From Fragilariopsis cylindrus CCMP1102 (Eukaryota > Bacillariophyta > Bacillariophyceae > Bacillariales > Bacillariaceae), in assembly GCA_900095095.1 (NCBI GenBank), contig FMBT01000572.1:1-46811 (forward strand): 46,811 nucleotides of DNA, written 5' to 3'. The notes beneath the pieces were generated by a model that made no database searches, had not been told where the DNA came from, and saw only the letters and a program-made list of their open reading frames with translations. Both the position numbers and the translations under genes were made by a program. This document shows positions 1,281 through 46,018 of this stretch, piece after piece (the first letter of the stretch is position 1; each line of letters begins with the position of its first letter).

Positions 1281-3293
1281 ATGATTAACGATGCGAGTAG
1301 TAGTACTCGTGACGACGACGAATCTACGATGGCTCCTACACTACCACCACCAACAGTTTGTGTAATTGGTGGTGGACCGGGTGCCATGTTTTTTTGTCAT
1401 TCACTGGAAACACAAAAGAATCTGTTGATAGATCAGGGAGAAGATATTAGTTCCTTCCCAACCATTGTGAAATGTTTTGAACGATCCTCTGGTCCCGGTG
1501 GAGTTTGGCGTTCCGATCGTACTCATGGAGATAATAAAAAAGACGAAGTGAAGAGGAATGAGAATGAGAACATTTCATTATCGTCTGACAACATTGCTGC
1601 TGTAACTGCAGCAACTGCCATAACGATGGACGTCGATAATAATCATATCAATATCAAACTTGTTCTTCCTTCGACTTCTACTTCGACTGAGGACGAAGAA
1701 GTGGAACTATTGTCAGCAACCGTTCCGCCATCGTTGACCTCGTCTTCTTCGTCGTCATCTCTTACAGCAATAGAGACAGTAGAAGGAGTAGAGGCAGTAG
1801 AAGCAGTAGAAGCAGTAGTGGGAGTACAAGTAGATGCAGTAGTGGGAGTAGTAGAAGTTGGAACAGATGCAGAGGATGCGAAGAAAGACGAAAATTCCTC
1901 ATCCGACAGAATCAATATGTATTCTGCATTGTGGACCAATGGTCAAAAGGAAGCATTTGAATTTTATGATTATACGTTTGTTGATCATTTTGGGTGTGAT
2001 ATTGCCTCCAAGTTACCCACCTACCTACCACGATCGATTGTTTTGGATTATTTAATAGCACGTGTGACACACAAATGTCCAGATTTTTTCCAAAAATATT
2101 TTTCCTTCCATACCTCTGTCATCAATGTGAAATATTTGGAACATAAACATGATGAACATGATCTTAGTACTGATGATGATGAAGATACAAGTACGAGTAC
2201 AAGTACTAATAATAAGAAATTTCAAGTAACAATACGTAATGAATTAACTGGTTTAATATCAATGGAATATTATGATAAATGTATCTGGGCGGGTGGTAAT
2301 GAAGGTCATCCTTACATACCTGAAACAACAAAACAACTATTTACTAAACATTCGAATGGTCATAATAGTAATACTAATGAAGGCAACAACAACAATAATA
2401 ATAGTAATAGGACAACAGCAGCAGTAGGACCAACAGTACCACCAGCTGTTATTGTTGCATCTCCAGCCGCCACGACCACAGGTGGTGTGGAACTGAGAGA
2501 TTTGAAAAAACAGAAAGTAGATCAGACAGTACTACTGTTTCCCGATGCGGAACAACAGCAAGCTGCCGTCACCTCGGATTTCGAAGACGACGGCAACAAC
2601 AGGACCAATAGTCAGGAGAAGAAGACTACAAATAGTAGTAGTACTAGTAGTACAAACAGTAGTAGTCCACCTCTACGAATTGTTCATTCAAGTGATACAT
2701 CTAACTTTAAGGATGATGTATATCAAAAAAATGTCCTCATAATTGGTGGTAATTTATCGGCTGAAGATTTAACATTAATGGCCATTAAGGAAGGTGTGAA
2801 TCATGTATATATAACATGTAGAGGTGCAAAAGATGATGAAACTGCAGTTGTTACAACTACATCCCGATGGCCATATGATAAAGTTACAATCCATCAGGAA
2901 ACGTGTGTCACAAATGTTAGTGTTTGTAATGAAATTACACTCACAAAAGTTGAACATTGTCCAATCAAACGTAAATATGTATTATTTGATGAGAAAGACT
3001 ACGAAAAAGTAAACGAAGCAGGCCCAATTGTATTAGATAACATTGATACAGTTATTTTTTGTACTGGATATGAACCTAATTTTAATATGTTAGACGATAA
3101 TTTACATCCCTATAGTAAAAACAACGAGAGTCGAAATGCTAAATTTAATGCTCCCAAAAATTGGACGATGCATCCTTCTACTACAACAACAAGTGATGAC
3201 GATCAGAAAATGAATGAAGGCAAAGATGAACATGATACCGATACCGATAGAGACGACGACGACGATGAATCGTCATCCTCAGAATCGTCATCA

Positions 3294-15352: not shown

Positions 15353-18300
15353 TCATTCATCTTTTTCTTCGTCGTCATCACCATCCTCATTTTCATCATC
15401 GTCGTCATCAAAACCTAAAACAGCACCAAATTTATCAAAGAATGTACCTGCGGGAATAGCATATAGAGCTATACCAACATAGCAGAACATAATACATAGA
15501 ATGCGGCCTGCCCACGTGAAGTCTGTTACACCCCACTCACCTCCTAAGAAAACAGCTGTCATATACAATGTATTTGGCATGTTCACAAAGACCTTCTGAT
15601 CACACATACCGGGGTAGTATTCATTGCATTCCTCGGTGGAAGCAAAGTCAAAGCAGCCGGGGATACCACTAGTTGTATTCGAAACGAGTGGAATCGATGC
15701 ATCACATTGTCTCCAATTAGGATTATTTTGTTCTAAAATGAAAAACAATGAACCACCACCAATCCAAATAATCAAAGCAAGTAGACCGGTGGCTTTCAAC
15801 ACATCTGTTGATGCACGGAAGACGTTATCAAGTTTACTAAATGCTGTAACGAAGTCCTCTAATTGTAAAATTCGGAAGATTCGAAAAATTCGAAATACTC
15901 TTGCAACATCACCTCCAGCTGCAATTGTACCAGTACCGACAAGGATTTCTTCAACGTACCACGGCGCTGTGGATAGAAAATCGACGATACCAAAAAAGGT
16001 TTGAGCGTAAATAAAACTTGAATACAACGATTCGCGATTTTTTGGTGCACAAAATAATCTTGAACCATATTCTAAGGTAAATACAGCAATCGAAATTGCC
16101 TCAAAGACGTCAAAGAAATTGCCAGGATCGTTACCAACGGCCTTATCAATTTGCGGAATGCTTTCGACCATCACAGCAACGATGTTGGCAATAATAACAG
16201 TAAAGATAAAAACTCTACCACAAAATGCAAAAGGCGTGAATCGTATTTTTCCATTAGAGTCTTTTGTTCCGTTAAGAAATTCGTTTACAGCGATTTGATA
16301 GTTATCAACGGTAGGACCAAAAGGTGAATTTGGGGGTGCGACTCCTTCCAGTGCACGGTACTGCTCTTCATACCAGTCATCTCCTTCTACAGCACCAGCA
16401 GTAGCAATGGCATTCTTGTTTTTCTTGGACTTGTTTTTACTTTGTACGATTTCAACGAAACCACTTGCAATTAATCCAGATGGAATAGAGACAACACCAA
16501 CAGCAGCAACGACCATGAAGAAGTTAACAAACTTTGCAGGCCAATCATACGTCGTAATTGGATAGTCGCCGGTAAGATGAATACCTATAGGTGAGACAGA
16601 GAGAAAAATTGGAAAAAGGAAGCATACGAGGTATTAATAATGATATCGATCGTATGATTGAGTATAAGGTAGGTAAGAACGACGATACAAATACATACAT
16701 TAAGAGCACGTATTATTGCACTTACCAGTATAAAAGAAACTATCAAAGAAATTTCTAAATCGATCCATCATCATACAATCCTCGACACACCCATACAAAG
16801 GAACAGGATCAATTCCATTCGTAGAATCAGTATATTCGAATAGATATAGAAGTCCAGCAAAGATTGTCCATAATGTAATAGCGGCGTATCCAGCAACCTT
16901 TAAGGAATTCCATTTGTACCGGATAACATCATCTATCAATGTAAAACTTGGAGCATACTTATCAAGCTTTAAAAGACGGATGATACGTGCCATCCGTAAG
17001 TACTCATCGTATTGATCTGCTAATCCTTCTGGTAATACTAGGGCAACATAGTATGGTAGAATTGCTAGTAAATCAATAATCGAATAGAAACTGAATACAT
17101 ACTTGATTCGGGAAACGAATCCATTCATAATGCTACCAGGTGTTGTTATTCCGCTCGAAGAAAATGACGGATCGGCACCTGCACCAATAAATCGGATAAC
17201 ATATTCCAATGTAAAGGCGTATACAGTAAAAGCTTCAATTCCTGAGAAATCGTTTTCATGACCTTTCACGGTTTGTAATATACCTATTGAAATCGCAACA
17301 AAGATTAAAATGTATATCAATGTTTCGACTGCTTGTGCTAATGCTGAGCCATATCCGTTCACTAAATTGTAACACCAACGTTCTACATCAGTAGCAGATG
17401 CAGATGTAGATGCAGATCCACCACCTCGTGTTGATGCTACATCTCTTTGTTGTGTTTTTGTTGCTTCTGGTGCTGTTTCTCGATCATCGTCTTCAGTTTC
17501 TTCTTCAACGACTTCCTCAAAACCTGCACCGAGGATACCAATTGGAATACCAAAAATGGCAGTTCTTTTGTTTTGTTTTGGTGTGGCAGAAAACGAGGAA
17601 AGAACAATAGAAAGAATAAATAATAGTATTAGCAGATAGAATAATAAAGAATTAAAACATGAATAGAATAGAATTAACTTACGCAAATAAACCTAATATT
17701 CCTGTAGCAATTTTTCCCCAAACTGAATATTGTGCTAATGGTGCTTCCCCTGATAAATTTAATAATGTCATCCACATTGAATTTGGCATATTGCTATAAT
17801 TCGAGGACATTTCATGATCCGGATTATTTTGTTCTGTGATATATAATATTGCACTAAATAATACCCATAGTAGTACTGATGAAAAAAATGTGACACATAA
17901 GACATCATAATTTCTGGTAAAGACATCATCAAAGGATGTAAATGCATGTGTATATTTTTCAAAACGAAATAGACGTAATAATCGTAATGCTTTAACAAAT
18001 GTATAACCAAAATCACTAGGACCAGATGATATACCACTACTCCTAGAACCAAAAAGAACAATCCAATATGGTAAGAAACCAAGTAAATCCACCATTGGTA
18101 AAAATCCTGTTGCGTAGGACCATACACTACTGCTACTACATCCACCACCATTGTTATTGTTATTGTTGTTGTTACTGTTATTATACATCGGATCAATTGT
18201 GATACATGCCAAAAATTTCAAACTATATTCGATTGTAAAAATTACTACAGCAAATAATTCAAAATAATTTTGAACTATACGATATCCATTTGGTAATATA

Positions 18301-19643
18301 TCAATAGTATCAATCATATATGTAATTGCTGTACCGATCACTAACATGTTAATAAAATAGGTATCACATAGTCTTGCCACCATTGTCGTCATTGGAAAAA
18401 AGAAATTGTATAATTTAGAACGATAGGCTGTACTGTATGTAGTTGGTGCAATATATCCTATAGTGTATACACCACGTTCAATAATTGGACCATCAATATC
18501 AATATCAATATCATTGTTCTTATTCTTTTGACGACGTCTACGTCTACGACGTTTGGATATTTCAGTTTCAAATCCATTCCCAATAATACCAACAGGTAAT
18601 GCAAAAAATGTAACAGCTATGATAGCAGTAAATGTACCAATTAGTTGTCCTTTTGGTGAATGTTGATCAAATAATGGAAATTCACCAAATAAATTCAATA
18701 ATGTATAGTAGGATGACATTGGTATGGATTGATATAAATTCCAACATGGTTCATCAGCTTTAGAAGAACAATCTACAATACCCCAATTATCAATAGTACA
18801 TAAACTTGTATCAACGTCAACGTCATTGGGACAATATATCATATCTAAATTTTTACGTTCCACAATATAGTATAAGGATGATATAACAATCCATGTTGTT
18901 ACACCCACAAATGCTGCAGTACCTAATATAGCCTTTTGAGCTCTGTATACATCATCACATAATGTTAGTGCTGAATCATACCGTCGTCCAACACCATCTA
19001 CTCCTCTACCCATTAATCTAAATAGACGAAACATTCTTAAAAATGATGTTGTACCAATTACGTTTGATGATGTAAATAAAAATACATCGACATAAAATGG
19101 TACTGTGGATGCTAAATCAACAATTGAATAGAAATTTGTAAATATATATTTAAGACGTCCTACTATAATACCAGCAGAACTACCACCATACAATTCTTGA
19201 TTTTCTAATGGAGCAGTCCATACTCTTAATACGTATTCAATAGAAAAAATACTTATAGTAAATAATTCTAATACAGATGTTGTACCTATATTTAAATATT
19301 CTAATTTATTATTATCATAATTACCAAACCATATTGTATCACAAATCATACCACAAGCTATTAAAGTGTCATTGTCATTGTTGTTTTCATCGTTAACAAA
19401 TAATGTACCAATAATAAAGGCAATAACATTTGTTAAAATTAATAGTACCATAAATTTTTCATATATTTTACCACCAAACGTTTTGGAATCTAAAAAATCC
19501 CATACCAAATTATAATAGTCATTGTTATTGTTATTGGGATCAGTAGTAGTGGTGGTGTTAAGAGTAGTGGTGATAGTCCTGCCAGTATCATTACTACTAT
19601 CCGCCAGTAGTAAAGGAGTAGTTTCACCAAGCGACGAGCTCAT
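15353..19643 (-). CDS. Four-domain voltage-gated ion channel with non-canonical pore ring (three exons)
   Basis: Three exons (19643-17683, 17564-16726, 16584-15353) join in frame to give 1343 aa with four tandem six-helix voltage-gated units. Each S4 has Arg/Lys every third residue: RMFRLFRLMGR (203-213), KALRLLRLFRFEK (551-563), RMARIIRLLKLDK (844-856) and RVFRIFRIFR (1162-1171). S6 motifs are ALPVGIIGNGF, GIPIGILGAGF, SIPSGLIASGF and AIPAGTFF, close to KCNQ/Kv S6. The pore loops lack the K+ signature TVGYGD. The aligned positions read NLFGE (317-321), NLSGE (629-633), HLTGD (936-940) and FLGGE (1279-1283), giving an acidic ring E/E/D/E. Family knowledge says GYG loss abolishes K+ selectivity and that an acidic four-residue ring marks Ca2+ or Na+ channels. 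It should act in a membrane as a single pseudo-tetrameric pore. Selectivity is inference; the domain architecture is firm. Confidence 0.88.
16585..16725 (-). other. Intron 2 of the four-domain channel gene
   Basis: 141 nt, donor GTAAGT, acceptor CCTATAG with a good pyrimidine tract. It splits a G|GT glycine codon at residue 934, inside the domain III pore loop, so the pore motif HLTGDYP exists only after splicing. Confidence 0.82.
17565..17682 (-). other. Intron 1 of the four-domain channel gene
   Basis: 118 nt, donor GTAAGT, acceptor AAAAG. It splits a GC|A alanine codon at residue 654 and joins the start of the domain II S6 helix to its Pro-Ile-Gly half, which supports the model. Confidence 0.8.
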
Positions 19644-27722: not shown

Positions 27723-28632
27723 AATTAATTGATGCCAAGTTAATATTGGTAGTTGGTTAGTTAGTTATTGCAAAACAAAATATTATATGAGAAAACGAGG
27801 ACCAGAAGAGGAACGGTGGTCGTGGCAAGTTTGTACGCAACACTAAATTTATCGTCTCTGACAATAATGAATCAGTAATAAAAAATGACTTGTCGCGAGG
27901 AGTCAGGATTTTTTTTTGAGCTCGCTACGCGCCATAATTTGACAGTAACTTTCGCGAATCTGCATATTTTTCCTTGGGAACGTAGCGAAAAGAAGAAAAG
28001 AAGGAAGCTATCGCGAAACGTGAACTCCTTGCGTGAACTACTGTATCATAATTCTCCCGTTTTATTCAAATTATTTCAAAGGAGTGCAAGATAGATTGAT
28101 TAACGCATACATCTTTTAAGAAAGTCAATGTAATTCGCATCCTCTATAATATTTTGTTATTTTGTTTTTTCGGCGACCTGAAGAGAATAATATTCTTTCA
28201 TACTCTGTAATTTTGTTTTTTCGGCGACCTGAAGAGAAAAAGATTCTTTCATACTAGAAGCAACGTGCTTCCGAATGAGATTGTTGCATAGTGAGTACAA
28301 GGATGTACCGTACCAAATGCCGGATATGAGGAGAGGATACTTCACGTAAGGTTTTCGCAAAAATAGTCCAATGAACGTGTTCAATTCCACGTAGACACTT
28401 CCTCAGTATCGGAAATTTACCTATTTTCCGCGGAGTCGCACAAATCAAAATCGGTCCACCAAATCGCTTACATATCCAAGACTGCAAAGGAGATAGAAAC
28501 TCGGAAATATTATGCACAGTGTACATTACGAATATATTTGCCATAATAAAAAAGATTCGACAACGAAAAACGAAATAAAAAACGCACACCACTTTCTACT
28601 ACTACCATTAAAAACAGGTCTATCCCAACAAA
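27723..28632. other. Divergent intergenic region with a 51-bp tandem duplication
   Basis: About 910 bases between two genes that start in opposite directions. A 51-bp unit containing CGGCGACCTGAAGAGAA occurs twice in tandem at about 28164-28258. A TACTGTA heptamer is at 28039. A small minus-strand frame over the duplication repeats 17 residues but shows no other coding sign, so I do not call it a gene. Confidence 0.45.
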
Positions 28633-29754
28633 ATGAAACTCTCCTCGAAGACTAACGAATTATTCTCTCTTTTGATTATCGCCATCATCGCTGCAGCTGC
28701 CGCAGGTGATAATAAATGTGAAGACCCTCTTAAAGAAATTACATACCGTTTCAACGGCAGTAGTTGTGGTGAAACGAATGCATTAATGAGTCGAGAACTA
28801 TTCAGTTGTGTAGATTCAGGCAATGCATCAACAGGTAGTGACACATACTATATTGAGGCAAGTGGAAGCGGAGACAGCTTGTATTTTGCAGGTGACGTTG
28901 GAATTGGCTCCGAGTACACTCTCAATCAAGGCGGTGCATTCGATTCACTTGGAAGTGCTACAATCAAGGTGTACACCACAAAAGATGGAGAATTATTACA
29001 AACAGTTACGATCAATGATATGACTTGTAGTAATCCATTATTTTTATTTGATAAATTTGGTGGCAGTCAAGTTACACAATGGGTCGAAACATCGGGACGT
29101 GTCGTTGACGAAGATGATGGTGATGAAGAGGAGGATGACTACACTGTTATAGGTGACAATAATTGCCAAGGTCCTGTAGAAGAAATCACATACCTTTTCA
29201 ACGGCGGTAGATGTGCTGCAACAGATACAATAATGCTTCAAGCTCTATTCAGTTGTGAAGATTCAGGCAATGCATTAATAGCTACTGGACCATACTATAT
29301 TGAGGCAAGTGGAAGTGGAAACAGCTTGTACTTTGCAGGTAACGTTGCAATTGACTCCGAGTACACTCTCAATCAAGAAGGTGAATTCGATTCACTTGGA
29401 AGTGCTACAATCAAGGTGTACACCACAAAAGATGGAGAATTATTGCAAACAGTTACAATTAATGATATGACTTGTACTAGTCCATTGTTTTTATTTGATA
29501 AATTTGGTGCCAGTCAAATTACCAAATGGACCGAAACATCGGGACGTGTTGTTACTAGCGATATTGAGATATCAAAAGAAAACTCCGAGACGGATGTCGA
29601 TGCCGATATCGGTGATGTCGATGACGGTGTCAGTACTAGTAGCGGCGTTGGGGTTATGGAAGCAGGATCATCTGCAGCCACTACCAACACCGTTACCGCA
29701 ACCATTGCTGCTGCTGTTGTCGTCACTGTAACAAGTGTCATCACTCTCATTTAA
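28633..29754 (+). CDS. Secreted surface protein with two duplicated four-Cys modules
   Basis: A 373 aa protein with a signal peptide (about 1-25, ending AAAAAG). Two homologous modules follow, offset by exactly 149 residues: C29, C45, C59 and C132 in the first match C178, C194, C208 and C281 in the second. Shared blocks include YYIEASGSG, SLYFAG, TLNQ and SATIKVYTTKDGELLQ. An acidic linker (158-169) separates them. A Ser/Thr/Ala-rich region and a hydrophobic C-terminus (about 355-373) with no charged tail suggest a GPI anchor. Four Cys per module suggests two disulfides each. I recall similar uncharacterised domains in other diatom proteins but cannot name the family with certainty. The function is probably cell-surface or wall related, by inference. 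The two copies are 60 nt identical without a mismatch in one stretch, so the duplication is recent or homogenised. Confidence 0.8.
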   Translation: MKLSSKTNELFSLLIIAIIAAAAAGDNKCEDPLKEITYRFNGSSCGETNALMSRELFSCVDSGNASTGSDTYYIEASGSGDSLYFAGDVGIGSEYTLNQGGAFDSLGSATIKVYTTKDGELLQTVTINDMTCSNPLFLFDKFGGSQVTQWVETSGRVVDEDDGDEEEDDYTVIGDNNCQGPVEEITYLFNGGRCAATDTIMLQALFSCEDSGNALIATGPYYIEASGSGNSLYFAGNVAIDSEYTLNQEGEFDSLGSATIKVYTTKDGELLQTVTINDMTCTSPLFLFDKFGASQITKWTETSGRVVTSDIEISKENSETDVDADIGDVDDGVSTSSGVGVMEAGSSAATTNTVTATIAAAVVVTVTSVITLI

Positions 29755-34788: not shown

Positions 34789-35860
34789 GTGTGTACACAC
34801 AACAAAATATCTCATTTGAAAGTGTTGCAAAGGACAACACCAGATGGGTTAGGTGCACTAGCATCCGCAAAGTGTCTTAGAACATTGTGCTTGCCTCCTA
34901 CAACTTTTCTGTCCATGTGGTTGCTGAATGAAATTCATTTCGCTGGTGTGGAAGGCACAAAAACAACAACACCATGATTTTTGATCAGAAATGAATACAA
35001 AATATCTCATTTGAAAGGGTTGCATAGGACAACACCAGATGGGACAGGTGCACAAGCATTCACGTAGTGTACTAGAACAATGTGTTTGCCTTCTACAACT
35101 TTTCTGTTCATGTGGTTGGGGAATAAAATTCGTTTTCCTGGTGTGGTAGGCACACAAAAAACAACAGGATTTTTGATCAGAAATGAATACAAAATATCTC
35201 ATTTGAAAGGATTGCAGACAACAACACCAGATGGGTGAGGTGCACAAGCATTCACATAGTGTACTAGAACATTGTGTTTGCCTCCTACAACTTTCCTGTT
35301 CGTGTGGTTGCAGAATGATATTCATTTCGCTGGTGTGGAAGGGACAACAACATGATTTTTGGTCAGAAATGAATACAAAATATCTCATTTGAAAGGGTTG
35401 CATAGGACAAAACCAGATGGGTCAGGTGCACAAGCATTCACATAGTGTATTAGAACATGGTGTTTACCTCCTGCTACAACTTTTCTGTTCCTGCGGTTGA
35501 GGAATAAAATTCCTTTTGCTGGTGTGGTAGGCACATAAGAAACAACAGGATTTTTGGTCAGAAATGAATACAAAATATCTCATTTGAAAGGATTGCAGAC
35601 AACAATACCAGATGGGCCGGGTGCACTAACATCCACACAGTGTACTAGAACATTATGTGTGCCTCCTACTACTTTTATCTCCCTATGGTTGTGGAATTAA
35701 ATTCATTACGCAATGGCAGGCATGCAAACAACATGATTTTTGATCAGAAATAATGAACAACAAAAAATCTCATTTGAAACGGTTACAGAGGACAACACCA
35801 GGTAGGTGGGTGCACAAACATCCACATAGTGTACTTAGTGTTTATTGTGTTTTCCTCCTA
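34789..35860. repeat. Satellite of about 190 bp units, six tandem copies in alternating types
   Basis: The anchor CAAAATATCTCATTTGAAAG (degenerate in the last unit) recurs at 34803, 34998, 35190, 35376, 35571 and 35761, giving unit lengths of 195, 192, 186, 195 and 190. Units 2 and 4 share details (TTGCATAGGACA, GTAGGCACA, AACAACAGGATTTTTG), while units 1, 3 and 5 resemble each other in their second half (ATTTCGCTGGTGTGGAAG or ACATGATTTTTG), so the array looks like a roughly 380-bp two-unit higher-order repeat that decays to the right. The minus strand is open across several units (34858-35403, 181 codons, Cys-rich), but two minus frames are open, so coding is doubtful. Confidence 0.85.
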
Positions 35861-43758: not shown

Positions 43759-46018
43759 ATGAAGCTTTCTTCTATATGTGCCAGCTCGTTGCTTGCTCCC
43801 GTTGTCATATCAGCTACTTCATTGGTAACAAATGATGACAACAATGAGCATGATCAAAAACAGCAACTTCCTCTTGATTCTTCTTCTTATTCAAAGGTGA
43901 ATGGAACAAACCCTTACAAGAAACTTACTAACCGTAGTGAGGTCCGTCATGAACCAAACAAAATCACTAACATTGATGACGTCAAGGACATGGGCAACAA
44001 GAACCAGTTAGAAGGAGCAGCAGCCTCCACTCCTACTAGTGATAGTAGCTATTCTACTTCTGATGACAAGAATGTATGTGTTCCTGCTGTCACTGTTAGC
44101 AAAAGTAGCAAACTTGATTTTGGTCATCTTCCATCATCATCATGCTCCTCCTCAAAGAAGCAGATTTGCATCAACAACACCAACACCATGAAGGAATCTT
44201 CTTTATCTACGGAGACAAAGACAGGAGTTTGTACTGACATTGATGATATCCCAATTGCATATTGGGACAATGGTGATCCCAATGCTTCATCTGACATTCC
44301 AGCCTCTTATTGGAGGATACTGTTACTAATACTGCTGCACGTGATGAACGCCGCCTTCAAGGACCTGATTGCGGAACAACATGTCCTCTTGCACGTCCTG
44401 ATGTTTCCAACTATAGTGGAGACTTCAAAATCTTGGTTGGAAAATGTACTGGTGGTGATGTTTCAACTTGTCCAACTGCGCCAGCTGGTTATGAGAGTTA
44501 TGAGAATCTCAATTGCTGGAATACTGCAGGGATTACAGAAATGTATGAAGCCTTTTATGAAGTAGATGCTTTCAACTATCCTTTAGAGTGTTGGGATGTT
44601 GGACAGGTAACCAACATGATAGGCATGTTCTATAAATCAACATTTTTTAACGCGGATATTGCTGATTGGGATACATCAAAAGTGAAACAGATGGAGAAAA
44701 TGTTTGCTCAAACAAATTACTTCAACCAAGCAATTGGTGATTGGAATATATCACAAGTTACCAGTATGGAATTTATGTTCAGGAAAGCAGTTTACTTCAA
44801 CCAAGATATTGGTAGTTGGGATACTCAACAGGTAGCCAGTATGAATGGTATATTTTATGATGCAGCTCTTTTCAACACGCCTATTGGTGATTGGGATACG
44901 TCACGGTTAACAGACATGTCTACTATGTTTAAAAATGCTGGTTCTTTCAACCAGAATATTGGTGATTGGAATGTTTCACAAGCTATGTCAATGCGTGATA
45001 TGCTTAGTGCTGCAACTTCTTTCAACACGCCTATTGGTGATTGGGACGTCTCTCAAGTAAGTTTGATGAATGGTACATTTTATGATGCAACTAATTTCAG
45101 CCAGCCTATTGGTGATTGGGATACCTCAAACGTACTGACTACGTATGATATGTTCAGTGGTGCAACTTCATTCAACCAGCCTATTGGGGACTGGGACATA
45201 TCAAAAGTTGGCACTCTTGGTGTAATGTTTTTTGGGGGCAACTGCATTTAACCAGCCTCTTGAGGATTGGAATGTGTCCCAAGTAACTAGTATGGCTGGT
45301 ACGTTTGGTTATGCATCTTCTTTTGATCAGCCACTTAATGATTGGGATATCTCTCAGGTTACATCCATTCATATTATGTTTCAGAATGCAACTGCATTTA
45401 ATCAACCAATTGAATCTTGGGATGTCGCAGTAGTAGATACTATGGGTAAAATGTTTCTAGATGCAGTAAATTTTAATCAATGTCTTTCCACATGGGCTGA
45501 AAAGTCTAGAGATATGGTTGGTACAGAGAATATGTTAAATGGCACTGCATGTCCCAATGGAATTGAAAGTCCAAATCCAACTCTTGGTCCATGGTGTCAA
45601 AACTTTGCCCAAGGATGTTTTTGTACCTGGTTTTGAGCCATCTCAGGAGCCAACGCTTCTACCAAGTGATGGACCAACTGACACCCCAACTGATGTACCC
45701 AGCAACGCTCCAGTGGTCCGCAACCCAAAGAGTAGAAAGTCGAGAAAGAGTAAGGCAAGAAAGAGCAAGTCAAGAAAGAGTAAGTCAAGGAAGAGTAAAG
45801 TGTCTAAGAAGAAATCTAAAGAAAACAAAAAGAGCAAAAATGGCGGTAAGGGTAAGGGTGGCGGTAAGAGTGGTGGAAAAAGTGGCAGTGGTAAGAGCCA
45901 GAACATTTTCAACCGTGCCACCATTGCGCCTGCTACGTCAGCGCCTGCTACATCGGCACCCAATACACGAAGACGTATCCTAAAAACATCTGCTAATAAT
46001 GGTGAGATTATAATGTAA
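43759..46018 (+). CDS. Secreted BspA-like repeat protein with Lys/Ser/Arg-rich tail, frame broken at three sites
   Basis: A signal peptide starts at the ATG at 43759 (MKLSSICASSLLAPVVISA). A Ser-rich region with two IPxxYW motifs follows. Then come about 12 repeats of roughly 25 residues (consensus FNQPIGDWDxSxVTxMxxMF), the BspA-like or DUF285 surface-protein repeat, common in bacteria, Trichomonas and diatoms. After the repeats there is a Pro-Thr/Ser spacer (PSQEPTLLPSDGPTDTP) and a tail with many KSRKS and GKGKGG units. The frame changes three times: near 44311-44316 (one base missing in GG), near 45228-45238 (one base extra in a T6G5 run) and near 45618-45622 (one base extra in T5). With these three adjustments the coding length is 753 codons including the stop. 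The homopolymer context points to consensus errors, but a young pseudogene is possible. Adhesion or cell-wall roles are inference. Confidence 0.72.

Follow-up and report, generated by a model that had tools for sequence, protein, structure and literature searches.

Here we describe a four-domain channel gene of the diatom Fragilariopsis cylindrus CCMP1102, located on contig FMBT01000572.1 (labelled C432), in which each of four Kv-like units has lost the GYG motif of the K+ filter and carries an acidic residue in its place. The window, i.e. the whole stretch of DNA analysed, is this one complete contig of 46,811 nucleotides (nt), and genome-wide searches covered 67.9 Mb in 818 contigs. The genome is marked as a diatom's by its silicon-transporter genes (27 matches to the Silic_transp models, the best at 1.1e-226), whereas an rRNA pattern and a RuBisCO query gave no match. 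Among at least 28 Ion_trans matches in the genome, only this gene has four units. The gene, its exons and introns, and its domains I to IV (DI-DIV; boundaries set by eye) are as follows.

15353..19643, minus strand: four-domain channel gene; three exons, 1343 amino acids (aa), Pfam Ion_trans four times; second haplotype at locus L009
19643-17683, minus strand: exon 1
17565..17682, minus strand: intron 1, 118 nt, GT..AG, inside the S6 helix of DII; identical place in haplotype B (123 nt)
17564-16726, minus strand: exon 2
16585..16725, minus strand: intron 2, 141 nt, GT..AG, inside the DIII pore loop directly before the filter; identical place in haplotype B (142 nt)
16584-15353, minus strand: exon 3, including the stop codon
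18558..19466, minus strand: domain I, approximately residues 60-362
17534..18410, minus strand: domain II, approximately residues 412-664, split by intron 1
16439..17329, minus strand: domain III, approximately residues 733-982, split by intron 2
15413..16225, minus strand: domain IV, approximately residues 1054-1324

Using a reporting threshold of E up to 0.001, Pfam assigns the whole protein to Ion_trans (E 4.3e-60) in four stretches. Domain I and most of domain II lie within a single open exon, and exons 2 and 3 are not separate complete channels because the introns cut through DII-S6 and the DIII pore loop. Each S4 segment carries 4-5 basic residues, mostly at every third position, and each S6 contains a P-x-G motif.

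A second copy on contig C448 (haplotype B, L009) has the equivalent three exons, with introns of 123 and 142 nt, and encodes 1360 aa, of which 1281 of 1339 aligned residues are identical to those of the window (haplotype A). The two contigs were paired by blastn at 92.8% over 6.9 kb, including a kinase neighbour, with one further piece of 1.0 kb at 96.9% and two shorter ones at 86-88%. The same kinase gene adjoins the channel gene on both contigs; given these shared neighbours and the presence of other haplotype-like contig pairs in the genome, the copies are probably alleles rather than paralogues. Synonymous divergence (dS) between them is 0.095 and nonsynonymous divergence (dN) 0.024, giving a dN/dS of 0.25, and differences are concentrated outside the pore regions (1 of 230 aligned residues differs in the pore regions, vs 57 of 1109 elsewhere; Fisher p 0.0003). 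The channel gene is intact and under constraint. Synonymous divergence is uneven along the gene, at 0.17 in DI, 0.09 in DII, 0.035 in DIII and 0.07 in DIV, and a poly-Asn run in the DII S2-S3 loop (window approximately 18140-18182) is longer in haplotype B.

Selectivity filter and putative acidic ring

The four filters read NLFGE (DI), NLSGE (DII), HLTGD (DIII) and FLGGE (DIV) in both haplotypes, and their acidic residues are encoded at the following positions.

18681..18683, minus strand: E321, DI filter acid (NLFGE)
17745..17747, minus strand: E633, DII filter acid (NLSGE)
16565..16567, minus strand: D940, DIII filter acid (HLTGD)
15536..15538, minus strand: E1283, DIV filter acid (FLGGE)

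The closest other gene in the genome is a single-domain channel on contig C324 (L014; approximately 1602-3049, minus strand; exons joined by eye), hereafter referred to as C324. Its filter, MMLTGQGGPDGELPWYT (LTGQ), shows the same L-x-G-x arrangement and two-residue shortening, with Gln in place of the acid. It also contains an EF-hand-like stretch that falls under the Pfam cut-off (24.2 vs 25.4 bits).

For comparison, Kv relatives were collected from prokaryotic and viral loci, as best matches rather than as a full census. A genome contig scan yielded 10 Kv relatives, while pattern scans of viral contigs yielded 17 Kv from one, 1 Nav from another and none from five (one of them with poor patterns). 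A five-row profile built from the four domains and C324 had matches in 177 of the 398 genomes examined from a single bacterial phylum, from which the best 30 loci were taken, and a search of 50,697 phage records matched three. A G(Y/F)GD filter is present in 27/27 loci of the first set and 38/38 of the second, eight of the latter lying in genomes already represented; all 56 distinct sequences keep it. One bacterial open frame of 543 aa (L081, genome G388) gave two matches to the domain profile and may be either a two-unit Kv or one match broken in two.

Relative to these Kv sequences, the first filter Gly is kept in all four domains, Tyr is replaced by E/E/D/E, the second Gly by F/A/Y/W, and two residues before the first Gly are missing. 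Counted from the first Gly, the S6 Pro lies at a spacing of 31/30/30/30 in DI-DIV; of the 56 distinct Kv relatives, 51 have a spacing of 30, two have 28 and three have no Pro in range. On the other side of the filter, a Phe lies 18 residues before the first Gly in 54 of 56 relatives, the corresponding Y/Y/F/F of the four domains being 16 before. Register scoring of the pore helix against Kv is best at a shift of -2 (mean BLOSUM 1.05; next -0.62). This helix shift, the spacing of 16 vs 18 and the unchanged Gly-to-Pro distance together indicate a loss of two residues where the pore helix ends.

As a consequence of this deletion, E321, E633, D940 and E1283 come into the register of the high-field-strength acids of Cav and Nav channels. 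Scored directly against Nav/Cav, the pore helix fits best at a shift of 0 (0.10; next -0.13), where the channel acid falls on the high-field-strength acid, and unaided hhalign alignments of whole profiles reproduced both the Kv and the Nav/Cav registers, with E321 aligned to E191 of NaChBac. A preliminary description of the locus had proposed a single chain of four units, each without GYG and each with an acidic residue in its filter, and the three-exon model with its GT..AG introns, the four Ion_trans stretches and the filters of both haplotypes bear this out, with the acids now placed at the Cav/Nav-equivalent position. Its statement that the first filter Gly had become Leu in all four units was a misalignment, the Gly being retained at its usual distance from the S6 Pro.

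Sequence affinity and phylogeny

The four domains are each other's best blastp matches (1e-13 to 1e-21), followed by C324 (5e-7 to 6e-13); matches to an in-genome Kv channel with TVGYGD range from 0.4 to 9e-7, and those to EukCatA reach 0.01 at best. When DIV was compared with the whole genome, nine matches were obtained, namely itself, its allele, six matches to the other domains in both haplotypes, and C324.

Searches against PDB sequences point in the same direction. With the whole protein as query, voltage-gated K+ channels make up all of the best 60 of 67 matches; the best of these fall in DII, and single-domain queries were made with DI, DIII and DIV. At E up to 10, K+ channels account for 49 of 50 rows for DI, 54 of 55 for DIII and 47 of 51 for DIV, the remainder being a flagellin-like protein, four RNase K entries and one designed protein, and no Cav, Nav, NALCN or TPC row was returned by these three queries. 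NaChBac, used as a control query, does retrieve Cav and Nav domains. C324 likewise retrieves K+ channels in 34 of 36 rows, the others being CNG alpha-4 (E 0.69) and one sorting protein. The five-row profile finds KCNQ3 first (6.8e-22) and Kv channels in the best 60 of 69 matches; in hhalign it scores 3.1e-45 against 14 Kv sequences and 3.7e-11 against five Nav/Cav sequences. A hidden Markov model (HMM) of the 56 Kv relatives gives 96, 112, 124 and 105 bits for DI to DIV and 130 for C324, compared with 112 and 91 for two in-genome GYG/GFG Kv channels, 54 for DII of Cav3.2, 52 for NaChBac and 34 for EukCatA.

Trees were built with 36 rows (using 18 of the 27 first-set loci) and with 52 rows (using 21 of the 38 later loci, with C420, C451, C441, L058 and L059 left out). 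EukCatA is represented in them by an in-genome gene (C809), recognised from its likeness to NaChBac and its LEWG filter rather than by a curated model. In the 36-row tree, Cav, Nav and EukCat form a clade with support of 100/100 and the four domains with C324 fall on the Kv side (93/75); support for the four domains with C324 in the 52-row tree is 95/93. The best trees nest this group among GYG Kv channels. Branches are long throughout. Approximately unbiased (AU) tests reject a union of the four domains with Cav3.2 domains (DII/DIII; p 5.5e-5) and with EukCatA (p 3.1e-5). Taken together, sequence comparison and trees support a grouping of the four units with Kv/KCNQ rather than inside Cav/Nav or EukCat. 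Of the domain pairings DI+DIII, DII+DIV and DI+DII, none is rejected (p 0.19, 0.36 and 0.09), and consequently no two-step duplication can be read from these data.

The Kv/KCNQ-type affinity that the preliminary description assigned to every unit by its S6 motifs is thereby borne out by profile, HMM and PDB comparisons. Grouping of the domains within Cav/Nav, which it had named as evidence against its view, was tried and rejected with the Cav3.2 domains. Its suggestion of an independent origin of a four-domain cation channel may be right: union of the domains with Cav3.2 domains or EukCatA is rejected, but a position as sister to Cav/Nav is not (p 0.12-0.51). In denying K+-channel ancestry to the known four-domain channels, it misses CNGK, whose description in the relevant section of PMC4749565 is taken up below.

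Predicted channel and competing readings

We consider it probable that the gene encodes a Kv-derived voltage-gated cation channel with four repeats, with predicted Ca2+/Na+ permeation and perhaps located in the vacuole membrane. Its ancestor would have been a single-domain Kv/KCNQ-type channel, of which four linked six-segment units (24 segments) now form one chain. This chain is predicted to fold as a pseudotetramer with four S1-S4 sensors and one pore, in which depolarisation would move S4 and open the KCNQ-like S6 gates at P-x-G. The K+ filter would have been dismantled by one two-residue deletion at the pore-helix end together with replacement of Tyr by Glu/Asp, converting T-T-V-G-Y-G into L-x-G-(E/D) and leaving a shorter filter with an E/E/D/E ring where Cav and bacterial Nav carry their high-field-strength acids. 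A short acidic filter of this kind may pass Ca2+ and small monovalent cations and, because the ring has no Lys, the permeant ions are likely Ca2+ and monovalents rather than K+ alone.

Two further features of the protein are a charged tail and an N-terminal motif.

18498..18569, minus strand: tail after DI-S6, net charge +5 in 24 residues
19608..19625, minus strand: ETTPLL (residues 7-12), candidate di-leucine vacuole-targeting motif, present in both haplotypes

Net charges in the 24 residues after each S6 are +5, -9, +3 and -14 for DI to DIV, an alternation that two positive and two negative tails would show by chance one time in three. The ETTPLL motif suggests delivery to the vacuole membrane. 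Of 58 first-Met N-termini, taken as mechanical long open frames rather than curated starts, three show the pattern E..PLL, namely those of both haplotypes and of a TPC-like gene (chance by composition 0.0003); the latter (L016, contig C760) contains VVVNNWTE, and its N-terminal frame starts MTVTEESSPLLRR, with ExxPLL as in the four-domain channel. EGTPLL and EASPLL are cited as di-leucine motifs of diatom vacuolar proteins in the section of PMC11085791 concerned. If the N-terminal motif works, the protein would be a vacuole-membrane channel whose opening lets cations pass from the vacuole into the cytosol; a plasma-membrane location would instead mean an inward Ca2+/Na+ current. A further TPCL-like frame in the genome (L018, contig C90) carries AVVNDWHA, resembling the VND motif that the same section of PMC11085791 gives for diatom TPCL, mainly of pennates. 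This frame, together with no Cav having been seen in the genome, would tentatively fit a pennate diatom.

Several observations weigh against the reading as a Kv-derived cation channel of the vacuole. AU tests do not reject placing the four domains and the whole of Cav/Nav on one side of a branch (p 0.12), nor uniting the four domains, C324 and Cav/Nav (p 0.15 with 36 rows and 0.51 with 52). The four domains alone form no clade in the best trees, where C324 lies among them; a constraint holding them together is not rejected either (p 0.27 and 0.33). In a tree of S1-S5 only, the domains stay with Kv, but C324 leaves and the long-branched Kv C441 joins. Register is weak after the filter, where the fit to Kv is best at no shift by a small margin (-0.16 vs -0.33), and alignment of Nav with Kv leaves the pore-helix register ambiguous (0.30 at -2 and 0.21 at +2). 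The candidate vacuole motif is only six residues long. Finally, an acidic ring alone does not make a channel Ca2+-selective, CNG channels with a GE filter being non-selective.

A K+-permeable, non-selective channel that works like CNG with its G-E-x-P filter is an unlikely but serious alternative. DI-DIII read G-(E/D)-x-P, and within the section of PMC7576140 that treats filters, the metazoan CNG clade (TIGE) is the sole clade-level exception to TVGY/FG. Unlike CNG channels, however, the protein has no cyclic nucleotide-binding domain (CNBD) by Pfam, which gives Ion_trans only, and its filter is two residues shorter than that of GYG channels, with the acid placed differently relative to the pore helix.

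In another reading, the four-domain and LTGQ genes are a relic sister branch of Cav/Nav, filter shortening and acid having been gained once; we hold this to be rather improbable. The pore-helix length to the acid equals that of Cav/Nav by both register scoring and hhalign, and the AU values of 0.15 and 0.51 leave the topology standing. Overall likeness is nevertheless far stronger to Kv than to Cav/Nav, the group lies within GYG Kv channels in the best trees, C324 has Gln instead of an acid, and the long branches count against relying on the topology. We likewise think it improbable, to a slightly greater degree, that the two genes are surviving relatives of the step from a K+ channel to Cav/Nav and form the sister branch of all Cav/Nav. 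The same low credence attaches to the corollary that this step already combined a Kv body with a filter two residues short, the acidic ring being found in the four-domain gene only as compared with the LTGQ gene.

About as improbable is a non-conducting four-repeat protein of Kv lineage, serving as voltage sensor or auxiliary subunit, in which the filter has decayed. Every GYG has been lost, but the pore is the most conserved part between haplotypes (the 1/230 differences given above) and none of the four units has lost the acid or its spacing.

We regard as very improbable a fast-evolving member of the classical four-domain voltage-gated cation channels (FVCC; Cav/Nav/NALCN-type) that is Kv-like in looks only. 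The plan of four times six segments and the E/E/D/E ring fit such an origin, the GEWG of DIV resembles the LEWG of EukCatA, and the outer turrets L5I/L5II/L5III/L5IV, with lengths of 43/15/26/48 aa and 4/0/2/4 Cys, recall the cysteine-braced turrets of FVCCs, which are likewise unequal and even in number (turrets of haplotype B were measured for all except L5III). According to the section of PMC6259924 on these loops, however, FVCCs have long L5I and L5III, a short L5IV, Cys in L6IV and a III-IV linker of 53-57 aa, whereas here L5IV is the longest turret, the L6 loops including L6IV have no Cys, the III-IV linker is approximately 70 aa, and the C-tail is 23 aa and acidic. The P-x-G of all four S6 helices, the lack of Cav/Nav rows in the PDB searches with DI, DIII and DIV, and the rejected union with Cav3.2 domains also argue against it. 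A gene-model artefact, in which separate genes or a mis-joined contig mimic one chain, deserves next to no credence: the model is drawn from genomic sequence, but its introns fall within a transmembrane helix and within a pore loop, and two independently assembled haplotypes agree.

Known channels and neighbouring features

Among known systems, Kv7 (KCNQ) and bacterial Kv channels share the voltage sensor, the pore helix, the S6 P-x-G, the 30-residue Gly-to-S6-Pro spacing and the best PDB and HMM matches, and differ in that the gene described here has four units per chain, a filter two residues shorter, Glu/Asp in place of Tyr and no second Gly. FVCCs are alike in their four times six segments, acidic ring (E/E/D/D in low-voltage-activated Cav, in the part of PMC5824947 on FVCC diversity) and turret cysteines, but belong to a different sequence family with another turret pattern; the present channel has Kv-type S6 helices and no long C-tail. 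CNGK, as described in the section of PMC4749565 mentioned above, has four repeats, a GYG/GFG filter and a CNBD in each repeat; it resembles the present gene in having four repeats from the K+-channel side and differs in its filter and its CNBDs. Kv-like repeats joined in one chain also occur as two-repeat tandem Kv channels in SAR (stramenopile, alveolate and rhizarian) protists, with TVGYG-type filters; the section of PMC7576140 on these channels reports none in diatoms and treats non-GYG filters as rare. Diatom EukCatA, whose filters are treated in a part of PMC8002053, comes from the same organism group and has its acid at the same pore-helix register, but is a single-domain, Nav-type Na+/Ca2+ channel, union with which was rejected as given above. 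The four-domain channel thus differs from Kv in its filter, from FVCC in its sequence family and from CNGK in having no CNBD by Pfam.

No description of a four-repeat Kv-lineage channel with an acidic filter was found in open-licence full-text literature, and in other collections the gene may carry an unspecific label, for example ion transport protein. If the favoured reading is true, four-repeat cation channels whose filter bears an acidic ring have more than one origin, and a Ca2+-channel-like machine may have evolved a second time, here from a K+ channel ancestor. The route would be a short one, consisting of deleting two filter residues, turning Tyr acidic and fusing four units, and conversion of a K+ filter into a Ca2+/Na+ filter would be testable in one protein. 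Nearly all pennate diatoms lack Cav according to the section of PMC11085791 that asks about its replacement.

Elsewhere in the window, two open frames and a repeat array were observed.

28612-29751, plus strand: open frame with two DUF7467 stretches (190 bits)
34802-35838: tandem array with a unit of approximately 195 bp in 5.4 copies
44295-45248, plus strand: open frame with DUF285 (305.6 bits)

There is no Rfam match in the window, and DUF285 is a family named from Mycoplasma.

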